A stretch of 64,000 nucleotides of DNA, taken from Pseudo-nitzschia pungens (taxonomy: Eukaryota > Bacillariophyta > Bacillariophyceae > Bacillariales > Bacillariaceae). Shown one piece after another: positions 1-7,185 of this stretch; position 1 is the first letter of the stretch, and every line of letters begins with the position of its first letter. Under the pieces are notes generated by a model, which searched no databases, was not told where the DNA came from, and was given only the letters and a program-made list of their open reading frames with translations. The translations under genes and the position numbers were made by a program. The DNA is taken from assembly GCA_037355855.1 (NCBI GenBank), contig CM074760.1, positions 7,804,501 to 7,868,500 on the forward strand, given 5' to 3'.

Positions 1-32
1 AGGCAAAGGACAAGAACAAGAATACGAAGACC

Positions 33-3000
33 GTGGATCCGGAAGAAGCAGGGACGATGAACAAAACCGCCAGAAAGGAACCGGCTCATTGCAACGGTTT
101 GAGGAGCTTTTTCTTTTGGGCCAGGGTTGTCTTCTCCTTGGGAGTGCTGGGATTTGCCTTTGCCGTCACGCTCTCGGCGTTGTTTCGGGGCCAAACGACC
201 ATGTGGAAGAGCGTGCCCAAGGCGGTCTCCGTCGTTTTGTTTTTCGTACTCATGTGCTTTGTGGGAATGATGGAGGGCATGCAGATTGCTTTTTTTGCGG
301 TCCTCAACTATCCCGAGGAACGACTCGCCAGGCAAAGGATTGCTTCAAACAACTGCCGGTTGGCCTTTCGCGGAGAAAACCTCCAGTCGTTTCTGATCGG
401 GAGGCAGATTTGGGTTACGATTGGCACGTTTCTCATAGCTCGCATCACCACGCTGGACGTCGCCGTCGGAGCAGGGGGAGGAGGAGGCACCGGCGAGAAC
501 ATTTTTGGGGTTTCGGACGGGTGGCAGACCTTTTTCAACACCGGTCTCCTTGGTGCCGTCATAACGACCATTGTCTCGTCCCTGGCCTGGCGGATAGTCG
601 CGTCCTCCTTCCCGCTCGCCTTTCTGTCGAATCCCCTGGTGAACGTCGTTCTTCGATTGTGTCTGCTCTTCGAGGCTTCCGGAATTTGTTCCTCGGCCTG
701 GGTTCTGGCGAGATACCACAAGATGATTGCGGGATATCAGCCAGATGAAGTCTACCTGGAGACCACGACCGCTGCCGGCGCCGCGGAACGTCCCACTTTG
801 TCTTCGGATGCTGCCGCTGTTTCCACAACAACAACGCGAGACAAGGACATTGATCGATTCGTGACAGTGCTGCGATTCACCTTTTCGCTGGCATTGTTCG
901 TCTTTTCGGTGGTGTTGGTCACGGCCTGCATCTTTACCAAGCAAACCCGCACGATTGCCGACAAGGAAAGCGAGGAATGGTGGTATTCGCTTCTGGTCTG
1001 CGCTGCCTTTTGGTTCCTGATCGCTTGGTTGTCCATGGTGGAGGGAAGCCTTGGATGTCTCATGGGGCTCAAAAGCGTAGACAACGTCCGGTACGGGCTT
1101 TCTCACAAAATTACACACAAAAATACCGAGATGGTGCACAGGGGAGACAACTTTGAACGATTCATCGTCGGGCGCCAGTTTCTGGTGCTGGCCATCGTTT
1201 TTGTGTGCACGTGGCTCACCGAGCCGGTGGTGGATGCCTCCGTCCTGGGTCTCCCGGACGCGGTGAACAAGATCTTTCTCTCTTCGGGTGTCGCATTGAG
1301 CGTGATTGTCAGTGTTGCGGGCCAGCTAACGGCGGAGGTCAATGCCGCCAGTTGCATGCTGGACTTTGTCAACAATCATTTTGTGCTCTATTTTGTCACC
1401 TATCTGTCGCTGGCCATCGAGTCTTCGGGACTCCTTCATTCCGTCTACCTGTTTCAGATAATTTTTTCCAAGATTTCGGGGAAAGCGATTCAATCCAACG
1501 AGCCCACACGGTCGATCATTCAGCGACTCTTCTTTTGGGGTCGGGTTGTCTGTTCGTTGTTGATTCTGGGATTTGCCTTTGCCGTCACCGTGGTACCCTT
1601 GGTATACGGAGAAGCTACGCTGTGGAAGGGTCTGCCCGACGCAGCGTCGGTCGCAATCATAGTGCTATTGATGTGTCTTGTTGGAATGATGGAGGGAGTC
1701 CAGATTGCGCTCTTTGGTTTAAGCAACATTTCCGAAGAATCCCTCGCGTCCCACAAAATGGCATACACGAATTACAAATTGGCCTTGTCGGAACAACACC
1801 TGCAGGCCTTTTTGATCGGGCGTCAGATTTGCGTGACGTGCTTTTTCGTGCTCATTGCGAGAATGTCCACCCTCAATGTCGCAGTGGGTGTCGACGACAA
1901 CGTGTTTGGTGTTTCGGACGGCGTGCAAAGGTTCTTCAACACCGGTGTGCTTGGGGCTCTGCTCACCACGATTATGGCGTCCCTGATATGGCGGTTGTTC
2001 GCATCTTCGTTTCCGGTCACCTTCATGTCCAATCCCGTAATTTACGTGATCATCTGGCTTTGTTTGATGGTGGAAGCTTCTGGGGTTTGCTCCGCCTGCT
2101 GGGTGTTTGGAAGATGGACCAAGCTGGCTGTGGGTTATCAGCCCGACCCGGTATACCTGGAAGGCGCACCGAAGGAAGGAGCAAAACCGATTACCCGACG
2201 AGACAAGGACATTGACGTGACGAGCACCGTGATTCGATACATTTTCTCCAGCACTCTTTTGTGCTTTGGAATCGCCGTCACCATCTCGTTGATTTTTACG
2301 AAACAGACGGAGCTATCATCGAAGTCGCATCCTGGTGTCGCCTTTGCCTTGTTCTGGTTCTTGCTGGTGTACTTAGGGACGATGGAAGGAGGCCAGGGTT
2401 GCCTTGTTGGATTGCAGGGCGTAGAGAAGGAAAGATACAAGGATAGTCACGGTGTGACTCTTAAAAACACCAAGATTGCCCACCGAGGGAACAACATGCA
2501 GCGATTCATTGTCGGGCGACAATTTCTAGTGGTCTTGGTGGTGTTCATCATCAATCTCTGTGGATCTCCCATTCCCGGCTCGAAAGTATTCCGGCTTCCA
2601 GACTCCATCTCTGCCGTCTTTGTGGATTCGGGAGTTTCGCTGATTTTGATCACGGTCATTCTTGGACAGCTGGCGGCACAAGTCAATGCTGCGAGTTGCA
2701 TGCTCGACTTTATCAACAACTGCTTCATGCTGTACTTTGTGACGTACGTTTCGATGGCCATCGAAATGTCGGGTTTGTTGCACTGTGTGTATCTGGTGCA
2801 AATTCTTTTCTCCAAGATCAGCGGAACGGCTGTCCAAACGAACGAACCCCCCAAAAGTCCTTTGCAAACCATTTTTTTCTGGGGACGAGCGACGGTTTCT
2901 CTGGCTATTTTGGCATTCGCCTTTGCGGTCACCCTGGCTGCGCTATTTGATGGCAAGACTACGTCGTGGGAAAGCGTGCCGGGTGTGGTCTCCGTGATTA

Positions 3001-3632
3001 TTTTCTTTGTCCTCATGTGCATCGCTGGTCTGATGGAGGGCATGCAGATCGCACTGTTTGCCGTAGTGAACCTTCCCAAGGAAGAGGTGGCCGAACACAA
3101 AATGGCCAAGGCATCGTGCCAACTGGCATTCAGTGGCAACAACCTACAGGCCTTTTTGATCGGGAGGCAGATTTTTGTCACGCTCTGCACGTTTGTGATA
3201 GCCCGCCTCACAACCCTCGACGTGACAGTTGGCACGGGTGACAATATTTTTGGAGTTCCCGATGGCGTACAAACGTTTTTCAATACGGGGCTTCTGGGAG
3301 CCATCATCACCACCGTTGTGGGGTCTTTGGCATGGCGAGTTATCGCCGCATCTTTCCCGGTGGCGTTCCTTTCGAATCCGTTGGTTTATCTCATATTGCG
3401 GCTTTGTTTGATCTTGGAGGCGTCCGGCATCTGTTCTGCTGCGTGGTTGCTGGCACTCATCAACAAGCAAATGTTTGGATATCAACCCGATGAGATTCAT
3501 ATCGGTAGGACTCGGAATTCGAGAGAAAAGTCTCTCGTTGACGCCGACGAATCCTTGAGTAATAGAGAAAAGAGGAAAACGGAAGCAATGGATTCTCTCG
3601 ACGTCATGGAATCGCAAGAGATAGATGCATAG
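33..3632 (+). CDS. SIT: Fused (tandem) silicic acid transporter, possibly 5'-partial
   Basis: Plasma-membrane sodium-coupled silicic acid transporter of the diatom SIT family, which supplies silica for the frustule. A single intronless frame holds five alternating five-helix half-units. Type A halves (about 108-770, 1520-2170, 2870-3520) carry EGMQ or EGVQ and then GRQ. Type B halves (about 840-1500, 2210-2860) carry a degenerate EGSL or an EGGQ, then GRQ, then the SIT-specific CMLD motif (codons at 1353 and 2697). A normal SIT of about 550 residues is B then A, so this is A-B-A-B-A, about 1190 residues. The tail after the last A half is short and charged. The first ATG is at 57, but the frame is open from there to the left edge, so a first B half may lie upstream, making a triple SIT. 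The family call is firm; the true N-terminus is not known. Confidence 0.93.
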   Translation: MDPEEAGTMNKTARKEPAHCNGLRSFFFWARVVFSLGVLGFAFAVTLSALFRGQTTMWKSVPKAVSVVLFFVLMCFVGMMEGMQIAFFAVLNYPEERLARQRIASNNCRLAFRGENLQSFLIGRQIWVTIGTFLIARITTLDVAVGAGGGGGTGENIFGVSDGWQTFFNTGLLGAVITTIVSSLAWRIVASSFPLAFLSNPLVNVVLRLCLLFEASGICSSAWVLARYHKMIAGYQPDEVYLETTTAAGAAERPTLSSDAAAVSTTTTRDKDIDRFVTVLRFTFSLALFVFSVVLVTACIFTKQTRTIADKESEEWWYSLLVCAAFWFLIAWLSMVEGSLGCLMGLKSVDNVRYGLSHKITHKNTEMVHRGDNFERFIVGRQFLVLAIVFVCTWLTEPVVDASVLGLPDAVNKIFLSSGVALSVIVSVAGQLTAEVNAASCMLDFVNNHFVLYFVTYLSLAIESSGLLHSVYLFQIIFSKISGKAIQSNEPTRSIIQRLFFWGRVVCSLLILGFAFAVTVVPLVYGEATLWKGLPDAASVAIIVLLMCLVGMMEGVQIALFGLSNISEESLASHKMAYTNYKLALSEQHLQAFLIGRQICVTCFFVLIARMSTLNVAVGVDDNVFGVSDGVQRFFNTGVLGALLTTIMASLIWRLFASSFPVTFMSNPVIYVIIWLCLMVEASGVCSACWVFGRWTKLAVGYQPDPVYLEGAPKEGAKPITRRDKDIDVTSTVIRYIFSSTLLCFGIAVTISLIFTKQTELSSKSHPGVAFALFWFLLVYLGTMEGGQGCLVGLQGVEKERYKDSHGVTLKNTKIAHRGNNMQRFIVGRQFLVVLVVFIINLCGSPIPGSKVFRLPDSISAVFVDSGVSLILITVILGQLAAQVNAASCMLDFINNCFMLYFVTYVSMAIEMSGLLHCVYLVQILFSKISGTAVQTNEPPKSPLQTIFFWGRATVSLAILAFAFAVTLAALFDGKTTSWESVPGVVSVIIFFVLMCIAGLMEGMQIALFAVVNLPKEEVAEHKMAKASCQLAFSGNNLQAFLIGRQIFVTLCTFVIARLTTLDVTVGTGDNIFGVPDGVQTFFNTGLLGAIITTVVGSLAWRVIAASFPVAFLSNPLVYLILRLCLILEASGICSAAWLLALINKQMFGYQPDEIHIGRTRNSREKSLVDADESLSNREKRKTEAMDSLDVMESQEIDA

Positions 3633-3719
3633 ACGGGATGAAGAAATCGGTTGCTACGGTACGATCTTCGGTCTGTTGGAGTGTCTTTGGCCCATTGGAC
3701 AAAATTGTTTCAGTACACT

Positions 3720-3909
3720 AGACGGCATTCACGATGATCAACTTGTTAACGAACTGGATGACAGTGTAGAATCATTATTTTAGAAAACACAGCGCAAAAG
3801 AGAGCATCGACTAGTAAGAATACTGACGAAATACATGCGAGACAACATTCATGATGATCAAATTTATTGGAATAGAGAAATAGATCACAAGTTATTTTAG
3901 AAGAGACAG
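3720..3909. repeat. Diverged direct repeat, period about 120 bp
   Basis: Two related segments of about 70 bp start near 3720 and 3840. Both hold ACATTCAYGATGATCAA-like and TTATTTTAGAA-like blocks. They lie just downstream of the SIT stop codon. The rest of 3633-4373 shows no convincing gene, only short AT-rich open frames. Confidence 0.5.
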
Positions 3910-4373
3910 TTACACACTGATCTTTTTTCCAAATTTAAGATTGTTGGCGAAAAACATCTTAGTATCCACTAAATATTTTTCCCAGGAGAACAAACGAACT
4001 TGATGGATCCGACACATACAATAGAGCTGAGCGCAGAGTTTGGGTTCCGAGTTTATTTCTTCTCGCCGAAAGAGCTCGGTTGGTTGATTTGGCAAAAAAT
4101 GCAAAAAATCCATTCATTAGCCCATCCGATCACCAATCTATTGCAATTGTTCTACTTCGTTTCTTCCGGTGTTTCACTTTAAGTTGTGTTCAAGTTCACG
4201 AAGCCGCAAAGAAAAGCGTTGTGGACTCCATACTTGTCGCTCGCGACTATTATCCCGCTTCCATCTACATATTTTATCCGTATCCAGATGAAGTCCCGAT
4301 TGCATTTCATATCTCATACGTATCTGTGTATAATATATTTACAAATTTATTTCATTTACAGTTCCATTTGTTG

Positions 4374-5072
4374 TTACATCGCGTAGGCACCTCCGAGAGA
4401 TTTTCCCTGTGGCTTTTGCGAACTGTCGCCTCCCGCCGCCTTGACACGCTTGCAGGCATCACCCCTGGCTGATCCACTCTGACCGTACTTGCAGAGCGCT
4501 TCGTCGGCATTCAGTTTCGGTATGCATTTGGGGTCGCGCTTTGGATCGCAGTTCTTGATATCCGCTTCGATCTGCGTGTTCAGTAGTTCAGTGTCGTTTG
4601 TTGTGTGTCGTGTGTCGTGTGTCGTGTGTCGTGTGTCGTGTGTCGTGTGTGGTGTATCGTATGTCGTGTGGTATGATGCGGTAGGAAAATTGGCGCGTAC
4701 GGATTTCGAATCGATTCGAAAGGAGTGGGTTAGTTTGTAGAAGGATTCATTCGCATTTTCTGGTCATCGGACAGCAACACAGCACGCTTGTCGTGAAACA
4801 TTGTAGACCATTGCAATTCTTACCTGGGCATTCGCAAAGGCGTCCATATCCAGAGCGTTGGCAGCGACAACCGGCGTAAGTGCTACAGCAGCGGCAAAGG
4901 CCCCGGCCCTCTTGAACATGTTTCTTCTGCTCGATACAATGTCCTCATTTGATGTTGCAGAGAGCTGTGTGTTTGTTCGGGCAGACGGCATCGATGCAGA
5001 CGTTGTAAATGCCTCGGTTGAGGAAACGGCGAAGAACGCCAAGAGCATGCTCAATCGCTGAAGAGTCATCAT
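4374..5072 (-). CDS. Small thylakoid-lumen protein, two exons
   Basis: Predicted 148-residue protein from exon 1 at 5072-4824 and exon 2 at 4571-4374, joined in phase 0 across a 252-bp intron (CAG|GTAAG donor, CGCAG acceptor). The N-terminus is a signal peptide ending at a TEAFTT junction, resembling the diatom ASAFAP plastid motif. It is followed by a twin-arginine segment (SSRRNMFKRAG) and a hydrophobic stretch ending in ANA, as in lumen proteins exported by the Tat route. The mature part is only about 75 residues, with cysteines in KNCDPKRDPKC, EALCKYGQ and DACKRV contexts. I infer a small lumenal photosystem-associated subunit but cannot name it. Exon 2 is found only by splicing; the frame continues cleanly to a TAA stop. 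Confidence 0.8.
4597..4675. repeat. Heptanucleotide microsatellite inside an intron
   Basis: About nine copies of a TGTCGTG unit, the last ones degenerate, lie wholly inside the intron of the lumen-protein gene, close to its 3' splice site when read on the minus strand. Confidence 0.9.
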
Positions 5073-5883
5073 GGTTTAAAGTTTTCGTTGCTTAGACTTT
5101 GTGTGAGTGTTGTGAGATTGTGAGAGAAGATGGAGATGGAAACAGGAGAGCAACTCCGCTTGATGCACCTTGAAAGCAACACAACCGACTGCAATACTGT
5201 ACCGGTAAGGTTACGGTAATACGAAGTATTGTAAAGTCACCCTTTGCAGAAATTGCGCTGGAAAATCGAGTCAGTCATCAACATCATAAAAACATCAGAC
5301 GCATTCCCACATCACCATGCAAGATTATTGATGACCATGTTCTCATTTTGTGGGATGTTCCTAGAAATCACGAAGTTCGTACTTCGTACTTGTAGGTACT
5401 CGTTAACTGGTACCGGTGACTTACTTGTAACGGTATGTGGGTAAAGATAAAAGATACCTCGTAGTATATCAGTATCATACGTGTTGCCAAAGTACGTCTT
5501 ACTGTTTCACAATTTCAAATTCCATTTGTATTCAGTCTGTCTGTCTGTCTATCTGTCGGCCTCCAAATTACATACCTTTGTTTTGTAAAAGCCACCCAAA
5601 TTCTTTTCTTTTTCTTTTTTACCGCACAAGAGATGATTAAGGCTTACCGTACGGTAGGTTGGAGGATAAACCTTACTGATATGATCACAATGCATGCAGT
5701 TGGTACAGATGGTAACTTAGTCGGTAGTCGGTTCTACAGATCCGAACGAGATTGGTAGAACATCCAAGAAAGAACATCGTCGACAATCAAACTCAGAAAA
5801 GAATACATACTCAAATTCACATTCGTATTCATAGTTCATAGACGTTCAGAGCCTGAGCTGTCGTACCATATACAAGTAAAGTC
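5073..5883. other. Divergent intergenic region
   Basis: Shared upstream region between the minus-strand lumen-protein gene and the plus-strand ZCCHC9-like gene. It contains several GGTAAGGTTAC- and ACCGGT-type words, a short (GTCT)n run near 5537 and a pyrimidine-rich stretch near 5600. No open frame here looks coding. Promoters for both genes should lie here, but no element can be assigned confidently. Confidence 0.5.
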
Positions 5884-6648
5884 ATGGCGGCTGCGGAGAC
5901 AACAACTGCGAATACTACCGGGAAGGGAAGAGGCCCCCGCAAGGGAGCGGCGGGACGCGGACCGAAACCCAAAATGACAAAGGAAGAGCGACGAAAAAAA
6001 TACACCGACATTGCCCGGAAACGACGACAAAAACAAAGCGGAATGCGGCGAGGAAACAACGGCAACGGCAACAGAAATTCCGTTTGCTACAATTGCCGAC
6101 AACCCGGACACAATGCTTCCGACTGTCCGTTGCTGAACGGGGGGGAGGCAAGCAACAGCACGGTGTGCACCGTCGTGGGTTCTTCTGATTCGAAGGACGC
6201 AAGAGGAGGCTCTTCTGCCACGCTGTGTTACAAGTGCGGGTCTACCGAGCACGCCCTCCACAACTGTCCGAAGCGACACAGGGGCGATCCCACCGATCTT
6301 CCGTACGCGACCTGCTTCATCTGCGGCGAAAAGGGACACCTCGCATCTGCTTGCTCCCAAAACAAGCACGGGATCTACGTCAATGGTGGATCGTGCCGGT
6401 TCTGCGGGTCGTTGCAGCACCTGGCGACGAATTGTCCCGAAAAGAAAAAGCGAAGGAAAGAACGGGAAGCAAATGCCGAAAACCAAAATGGCAGAAACGA
6501 CAAGGAGCAAGCTCTGTTGGACGAGGCATTGCAGGTGGACGACGATCCGAGCAGCACTGTTTCCAACACAAAGAAAACAATCCAAGACGAGAAGAAAAAG
6601 TCGACGTCAAGAGAACCGAAGAAAAAGAAACGGGTGGTCAATTTCTAA
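5884..6648 (+). CDS. ZCCHC9: CCHC zinc-knuckle protein, ZCCHC9-like
   Basis: Intronless 254-residue nuclear protein. After a basic, Gly/Lys/Arg-rich N-terminus there are four CCHC knuckles: CYNCRQPGHNASDC, CYKCGSTEHALHNC, CFICGEKGHLASAC and CRFCGSLQHLATNC. The spacing and the sequence between knuckles 3 and 4, including the GIYVNGGSC segment, match eukaryotic ZCCHC9, a nucleolar RNA-binding protein linked to rRNA processing and RNA surveillance. The C-terminus is acidic and then strongly basic (SREPKKKKRVVNF), a likely nuclear localisation signal. The last codons are copied in the tandem duplication downstream. The start is the first ATG after stops in frame. The family call is strong; the exact role in diatoms is inferred. 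Confidence 0.88.
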   Translation: MAAAETTTANTTGKGRGPRKGAAGRGPKPKMTKEERRKKYTDIARKRRQKQSGMRRGNNGNGNRNSVCYNCRQPGHNASDCPLLNGGEASNSTVCTVVGSSDSKDARGGSSATLCYKCGSTEHALHNCPKRHRGDPTDLPYATCFICGEKGHLASACSQNKHGIYVNGGSCRFCGSLQHLATNCPEKKKRRKEREANAENQNGRNDKEQALLDEALQVDDDPSSTVSNTKKTIQDEKKKSTSREPKKKKRVVNF

Positions 6649-6853
6649 CGGTTCTTTGCGATCGAGCCATCGGTTGGTCGGTTAACGTCGCCACAAACAC
6701 AACTTCTTCTTCGGGAACTGCCAACACTTTTGCGGTAACTTGAAACGGGTGGTCAATTTCTAACGGTTCTTTGCGATCGAGCCCTCGGTTGGTCGGTTAA
6801 TATCGCCACCAACACAACTTCTTCGGGAACTGCCAACACTTTTGCGGTAACTT
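6628..6853. repeat. 115-bp tandem duplication over a gene 3' end
   Basis: Copy 1 (6628-6742) starts in the last codons of the ZCCHC9-like gene and runs through its stop codon and 3' flank. Copy 2 (6743-6853) repeats it with a few substitutions and a 3-4 base deletion. The second copy therefore carries a silent duplicate of the C-terminal codons and stop. High identity suggests a recent event. Confidence 0.95.
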
Positions 6854-7185
6854 AATACGTAGTACCTATTAAAAATACACGGAAGATGTAAAACTATTCC
6901 AGGTCTTCAGGGCGTTTCTAATTTTACAGCATGTGGATACAGTACGTGTAAGTGTACATGTACGTACTCGTCGAACGCGAACGAATAAAAGATAATAGAA
7001 GGAAATGAAAGCCAGATTCTTTCGCGCCGAACTCTCGACAATTTTCTAGTCGGTCTCGTTGTGAACTTGGGGAGAGATGGTGGTATCGGCATGCATTACT
7101 ATGGCACTGATTCCTTTGAATTGAAGACGCGAAAAGAGACAGGAGTGCCTGCCTGCTAGCTAGCTAGGTATTCCGTCGTTTGGCC

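Follow-up and report, generated by a model that had tools for sequence, protein, structure and literature searches.

The 64,000-nucleotide stretch of the Pseudo-nitzschia pungens genome analyzed in this study (hereafter, the window) opens inside a silicon transporter (SIT) gene. The gene is a complete triple SIT (multi-SIT) of a pennate diatom, a fusion of an already known kind, and the glutamine of the first EGxQ motif, one of four presumed to be important for transport, has been lost from its middle unit. This loss is conserved, has a single origin, affects one unit and neither of the others, and deserves follow-up. The available text of PMC6114903 proposes that multi-SITs are cleaved into mature SITs, each of which transports. 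That the glutamine loss has been retained, always at the same position of the triple, speaks against interchangeable units, and the lineage that carries it allows a direct test of whether multi-SITs work as assembled heteromers.

We located the gene in the parent genome (66.9 Mb, 28 contigs), in which the window corresponds to positions 7804501-7868500 of contig C3. One open frame of 1209 codons, free of stops and frameshifts, spans window positions 3-3632 on the plus strand and carries SIT halves in the order C, N, C, N, C. The preliminary description of this DNA had read the visible frame as A-B-A-B-A (A, C half; B, N half) and had proposed either a triple SIT beginning left of the window or a protein of 2.5 units with an unpaired half; a stop or frameshift would have broken the fusion. 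The order was confirmed, and reading the upstream contig identified the triple SIT: the frame continues to a first ATG 1375 bases 5' of window base 1, yielding a 1668-codon ATG-to-TAG open reading frame (ORF) at positions 2127-7133 of the extracted locus L009, of which positions 3502-7133 are identical to window positions 1-3632. The N half of unit 1 lies upstream in the same frame (C3:7803825-7804460), so the odd half was an effect of the window edge. A profile search delimited three complete units at residues 229-708, 737-1174, and 1191-1623, preceded by an N-terminal extension of approximately 228 residues, and the full order is B-A-B-A-B-A, or (B-A)x3. PF03842 was the sole Pfam family matched at E <= 0.01 (1528.2 bits against a cut-off of 26.8), the match of the last unit reaching an E value of 1.2e-174. 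Because unit 2 exhibited full-length PF03842 homology (477.9 bits), it was placed in the SIT family although its first EGxQ reads EGSL.

A 2.5-unit SIT with its true start near the window edge was ruled out by this complete in-frame N half. The window edge alone speaks for such a protein, whereas the far-upstream N-terminus MSTND also occurs in the relative P0002 (MSTND) and in P0003 as MSTDD, and we regard its probability as negligible. A recent copy or an assembly artefact was likewise ruled out; the three units are only 53-60% identical to one another and align with independent relatives. The features of the gene are as follows.

Window 1..3632, plus strand: 3' part of the triple SIT ORF (residues 460-1668, from base 3).
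Upstream of the window: unit 1, N half, with EGGQ at residue 290, GRQ at residue 340, and SMLD at residue 401.
Window 93..749, plus strand: unit 1, C half, with EGMQ at 273-284 and GRQ at 399-407.
Window 735..758, plus strand: YQPDEVYL linker motif at the end of unit 1 (motif described in the available text of PMC6114903).
Window 834..2147, plus strand: unit 2, the complete middle SIT unit (profile search; AlphaFold2 model).
Window 840..854, plus strand: DKDID (DxDID) at the unit 1/2 boundary (motif described in the same source).
Window 1041..1052, plus strand: unit 2, N half, EGSL replacing EGxQ, with the Leu809 codon at 1050-1052.
Window 1170..1178, plus strand: GRQ in the N half of unit 2, kept.
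Window 1335..1337, plus strand: Glu904, replacing the second Q of the xQxxxQx motif of transmembrane helix 4 (TM4) in 10 of 10 readable lineage members.
Window 1692..1703, plus strand: EGVQ in the C half of unit 2, kept, followed by GRQ at 1818-1826.
Window 1848..1850, plus strand: Val1075, where the 212 other units compared have F.
Window 2136..2159, plus strand: YQPDPVYL linker motif at the end of unit 2.
Window 2196..3494, plus strand: unit 3, complete, with EGGQ at 2385-2396, GRQ at 2514-2522, EGMQ at 3036-3047, and GRQ at 3162-3170.
Window 2202..2216, plus strand: DKDID motif at the unit 2/3 boundary.
Window 3495..3632, plus strand: C-terminal tail and stop codon.

The two EGxQ-GRQ pairs are complete in units 1 and 3, both of which read EGGQ/GRQ and EGMQ/GRQ. 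Unit 2 reads EGSL/GRQ and EGVQ/GRQ and is thus left with three GXQ motifs. The EGSL noted in the preliminary description is therefore real, and the loss extends throughout the lineage: the glutamine was missing from the middle unit in all ten readable members (query included), nine of which carry leucine and one methionine. The replaced motif is EGGL in P0001, P0005, P0006, P0014, and P0056, EGSL in P0002, P0003, and P0004, as in the query, and EGGM in P0053. P0053 and P0056 comprise two units only, the first of which was assigned as the middle unit on the basis of its identity (73% and 72%, respectively) and its linker. We further compared these ten middle units with 212 other units and identified twelve positions that are conserved in at least 90% of the latter and differ in most of the former. 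Among those that differ in all ten, the strongest are Q70 (98.6% in the other units), replaced by L or M; Q165 (100%), replaced by E; and F335 (100%), replaced by V. F314 (98.6%) is changed in nine. Outside the ten, E165 was confined to two fragments, P0099 and P0137, whose matches to the query begin at the middle unit (60 and 62%). V335 was likewise confined to two, P0090 and P0094, with matches of 82-85% to the lineage.

To place these relatives without the sites in question, we built a tree of 66 rows from unit 3 alone, and because this tree contains no middle-unit sites, the lineage is not defined by the trait. The ten carriers, together with P0090 and P0094, formed one clade (SH-aLRT, the Shimodaira-Hasegawa-like approximate likelihood ratio test, 99), the glutamine is present in each of the 53 other rows whose middle unit could be read, and one change suffices to explain the loss. 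P0099 falls outside the carrier clade, yet has E165, and E165 may therefore be older than V335. The middle-unit substitutions are thus conserved and of single origin. A wider count, in which the 87 relatives were supplemented by another 121 proteins and by the genome's own four single SITs, revealed that the EGxQ glutamine is missing in 18 of 371 readable units, comprising the ten lineage middle units and eight scattered ones. A literature search found no mention of GXQ loss in a multi-SIT middle unit in the available text of the papers.

The relatives were obtained by protein searches in which scoring was limited to roughly 8000 candidates, those with the most words in common with the query. 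The first returned 87 relatives as long as multi-SITs, the majority having three units, complete or in part; a repeat scored on the middle unit returned 88, one of them new, and one further search provided the 120 matches listed of 422. P0003 (1592 aa) was 67% identical to the query over 100% of the query length. It is labelled a complete transcript ORF (MMETSP), which speaks against a spurious fusion and for a fused mRNA in a relative. P0134, by name a gene model of Pseudo-nitzschia multiseries, matches unit 1 of the query at 70%.

The preliminary description had suggested a tree of the half-units for identifying which pairs were duplicated together. We took 56 half-units from eight triples together with four single SITs; in the resulting tree all 28 N halves separated from all 28 C halves (SH-aLRT 100), and the analysis of whole units also yielded no odd half. 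A tree of the 45 units of 15 triples placed the lineage in three clades, one each for unit 1, unit 2, and unit 3 (100/100, 100/100, and 100/99, respectively), and each joined the same-numbered unit of P0011, P0012, and P0028 (100/99, 100/99, and 100/100). Across all 15 triples, units 1 grouped at 95/91 and units 3 at 100/100, whereas units 2 grouped at only 81/73. The grouping of same-numbered units across proteins indicates that whole B-A units were multiplied before these lineages split. A wider unit tree comprised 7 lineage members, 10 single SITs, and 16 of the 41 other full triples. There, unit 1 grouped with unit 2 of the same protein in P0041 (Ulnaria), P0016, P0022, and others, a pattern of branching that suggests conversion or a separate duplication.

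To interpret the lost glutamine, we considered PtSIT1, in which eight residues were changed to alanine. Of these mutations, Q62A was relatively benign for folding, and transport was substantially diminished in all mutants (available text of PMC4912633). By motif spacing, Q62 corresponds to the glutamine lost from unit 2: the distances from Q62 to R98, Q104, and D166 of PtSIT1 are 36, 42, and 104 residues, and counting the same distances here leads, in both unit 2 and unit 3, to an R, to the glutamine of GRQ, and to the aspartate of CMLD. The second replaced glutamine (E904 in unit 2) belongs to the TM4 xQxxxQx motif, for which the available part of PMC5100055 suggests a role in structure or oligomerisation and cites homotetramers. 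The effects of Q62A and the suggested role of the TM4 motif lead us to propose that two units are canonical transporters and that the conserved middle one is probably impaired in transport and plays a structural or regulatory role, a reading that we consider to have about an even chance of being correct. The frame holds three units that belong to the class of ten-helix Na+-coupled silicic acid transporters, and in units 1 and 3 all four GXQ motifs are retained. The middle one was remodelled once in the ancestor of the lineage through loss of the EGxQ glutamine (to L or M), the TM4 exchange of Q for E, and the exchange of F for V, and has retained this state since. In our proposal, it would still fold, may transport poorly or not at all, and could serve the two active units beside it as an integral protomer with a structural or regulatory function; alternatively, if the chain is cut at DxDID, it could be a separate modifying subunit. 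More tentatively, we suggest a stronger form of the proposal for this diatom lineage close to Pseudo-nitzschia multiseries, in which the triple SIT is asymmetric: a single, lasting conversion would have left the middle unit without transport, as a regulatory or sensing protomer covalently linked to two working silicic acid transporters. The preliminary description had also raised the possibility of unequal transport sites. The underlying glutamine loss proved to be conserved in the middle units of the lineage; unequal transport itself is a prediction from the sequence.

Structure models are consistent with a folded middle unit. The AlphaFold2 model of unit 2 (window 798-2195) had a predicted local distance difference test score (pLDDT) of 89.1 and a predicted template modelling score (pTM) of 0.88, and a 1200-residue model comprising the C half of unit 1 and units 2 and 3 had values of 84.3 and 0.77. 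Foldseek returned no PDB match at E <= 0.001. Solved structures gave two weak matches to unit 3, both envelopment polyproteins (E 0.017 and 0.084) and taken as chance, and zero matches to the profile of alignment A1 at E values up to 10. The CNNM/CorC membrane domain PF01595 remained below its cut-off of 28.4, with 19.3 bits for unit 2 and 25.5 bits for unit 3.

Several observations weigh against a transport-impaired middle unit. Unit 2 appears to retain the remaining residues that were mutated in PtSIT1, with R98, Q104, and D166 at exact spacing and the others by motif (E184 is one position off), and partial activity is therefore possible; moreover, Q62 was changed in a single-unit SIT, and to alanine rather than to L or M (PMC4912633, available text). 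The glutamine is also lost elsewhere, in unit 1 of P0054, in unit 3 of P0057, in the second of the two units of P0078, and in P0109, P0121, P0169, P0174, and the divergent single SIT of this genome. In non-diatom SITs, namely those of some stramenopiles, tunicates, rhizarians, and Rhodococcus, the EGXQ glutamine is replaceable too, by K, M, or H (PMC5100055); the available text of that paper does not describe fixation at one position of a multi-unit SIT. Western blots of Synedra revealed bands at about 64 kDa and none of multi-SIT size (PMC6114903, available text). The chain may thus be cut, and unit 2 would then act alone or reassemble. Finally, we tried and rejected the general rule that the middle unit is the most diverged one in triples: in the 44 triples that do not belong to the lineage, its scores were not significantly lower than those of its neighbours (p = 0.18). 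When units were scored with a profile of 73 single SITs, the query not being among the full triples scored, the lowest score among 50 triples fell on unit 3 in 23, on unit 2 in 22, and on unit 1 in 5.

One alternative is an ordinary triple SIT whose units would all transport; the triple would serve dosage, and the exchange of Q for L or M would be tolerated through Q165E or another compensation. The occasional losses of the glutamine elsewhere suit this explanation, as do the other four motifs of unit 2 (GRQ, CMLD, EGVQ, and GRQ), which are intact in the query, and the proposal that each unit is a complete SIT (PMC6114903, available text). Furthermore, 72 of 83 positions conserved at 95% or more in the 212 other units are unchanged in all ten lineage middle units. 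The reduced transport of Q62A and the three substitutions common to all ten middle units, at sites 98.6-100% conserved elsewhere, argue against it, and we consider it somewhat unlikely. Decay of unit 2 under relaxed constraint, with the unit retained merely because it is in frame, would agree with its being the lowest-scoring unit in all six lineage members scored with the single-SIT profile. However, the mean identity within the lineage (7 members, 21 pairs) was 77.1% for unit 2, against 80.0% and 83.8% for units 1 and 3, so the constraint on unit 2, which also shows in the 72 unchanged positions, is similar to that on the other units, and the replacement residues are identical across the lineage. 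Decay is accordingly very improbable. With the trait columns masked, the stem branch of unit 2 measured 0.40 changes per site, compared with 0.20 for unit 1 and 0.11 for unit 3; such a burst followed by constraint fits a changed role better than decay. The same pattern, together with the fixation of E165 and V335 as single residues in all ten, would also agree with a middle unit that changed its transport function (kinetics, solute, or direction) without losing it. Nothing points to a particular solute or mode, and we regard this explanation as unlikely, more so than transport by all three units.

The triple SIT resembles known multi-SITs in several respects. Multi-SITs were described in two Synedra, and 48 full-length sequences from 17 diatom species were reported, with YQxDxVYL and DxDID between the units (PMC6114903, available text). 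Both motifs are present at both unit boundaries here, and the statement of the preliminary description that fused SITs had been reported earlier is borne out by these published triples. The multi-SITs (SIT-TRI and kin) of Synedra/Ulnaria, Pseudo-nitzschia, and other diatoms are alike in having three PF03842 units per frame and both linker motifs. P0041, by name Ulnaria danica silicon transporter 3, is 54% identical to the query over 86% of the query length; its units 1 and 2 are nearly identical (end branches 0.006 and 0.027), unlike those of the query. According to PMC6114903 (available text), each monomer of the merged SITs has four GXQ motifs, whereas the middle unit here has three in all ten readable members. 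The triple of Nitzschia inconspicua (P0028) groups with the lineage plus P0011 and P0012 in each unit and shares a partial N-terminal motif. Its middle unit is also strongly diverged (513.9 bits, compared with 654.6 and 650.1 for the other two) and, unlike that of the lineage, keeps EGGQ and lacks E165 and V335. Single ten-helix SITs similar to PtSIT1 consist of one unit of the same kind, with equal distances separating the first GXQ from both the second and CMLD, and their four GXQ motifs are absolutely conserved in the alignment of PMC4912633 (available part).

We also noted a stretch resembling YYKPLPVADQMGR in the N-terminal extension, upstream of the window at approximately 2343-2453 of L009. 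All seven lineage members whose N-terminus is covered have it, P0028 has it in part, and it is a candidate regulatory or targeting segment. Unit 1 of the triple SIT reads SMLD, where P0001-P0006 have CMLD. The record of another triple SIT, P0042, names Tiarina, which is a ciliate; the protein more likely comes from the diatom prey of Tiarina.

Two further SIT copies were observed on contig C6 of the parent genome. In the copy at 1752054-1753656, the frame is broken just past the second EGxQ, giving two frames, and one TAA lies inside the first match; this copy is either a pseudogene or an assembly error. The other (2268433-2269965, minus strand) is a very divergent single SIT of 570 aa with EGGL, EALQ, and SMLD where EGxQ, EGxQ, and CMLD are expected, and it has the longest end branch in the unit tree. 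Downstream of the triple SIT, two adjoining frames at window 4374-5075 on the minus strand, stretch SRRNMFKRAGAFAAAVAL, resemble exons of a small organelle-targeted precursor and had zero Pfam matches at E <= 0.01. A short tandem repeat of tgtcg/tgtgtcg units was spotted by eye at about 4595-4665, and a 263-aa zinc-knuckle protein (PF00098, 65.2 bits) is encoded at 5857-6648 on the plus strand.
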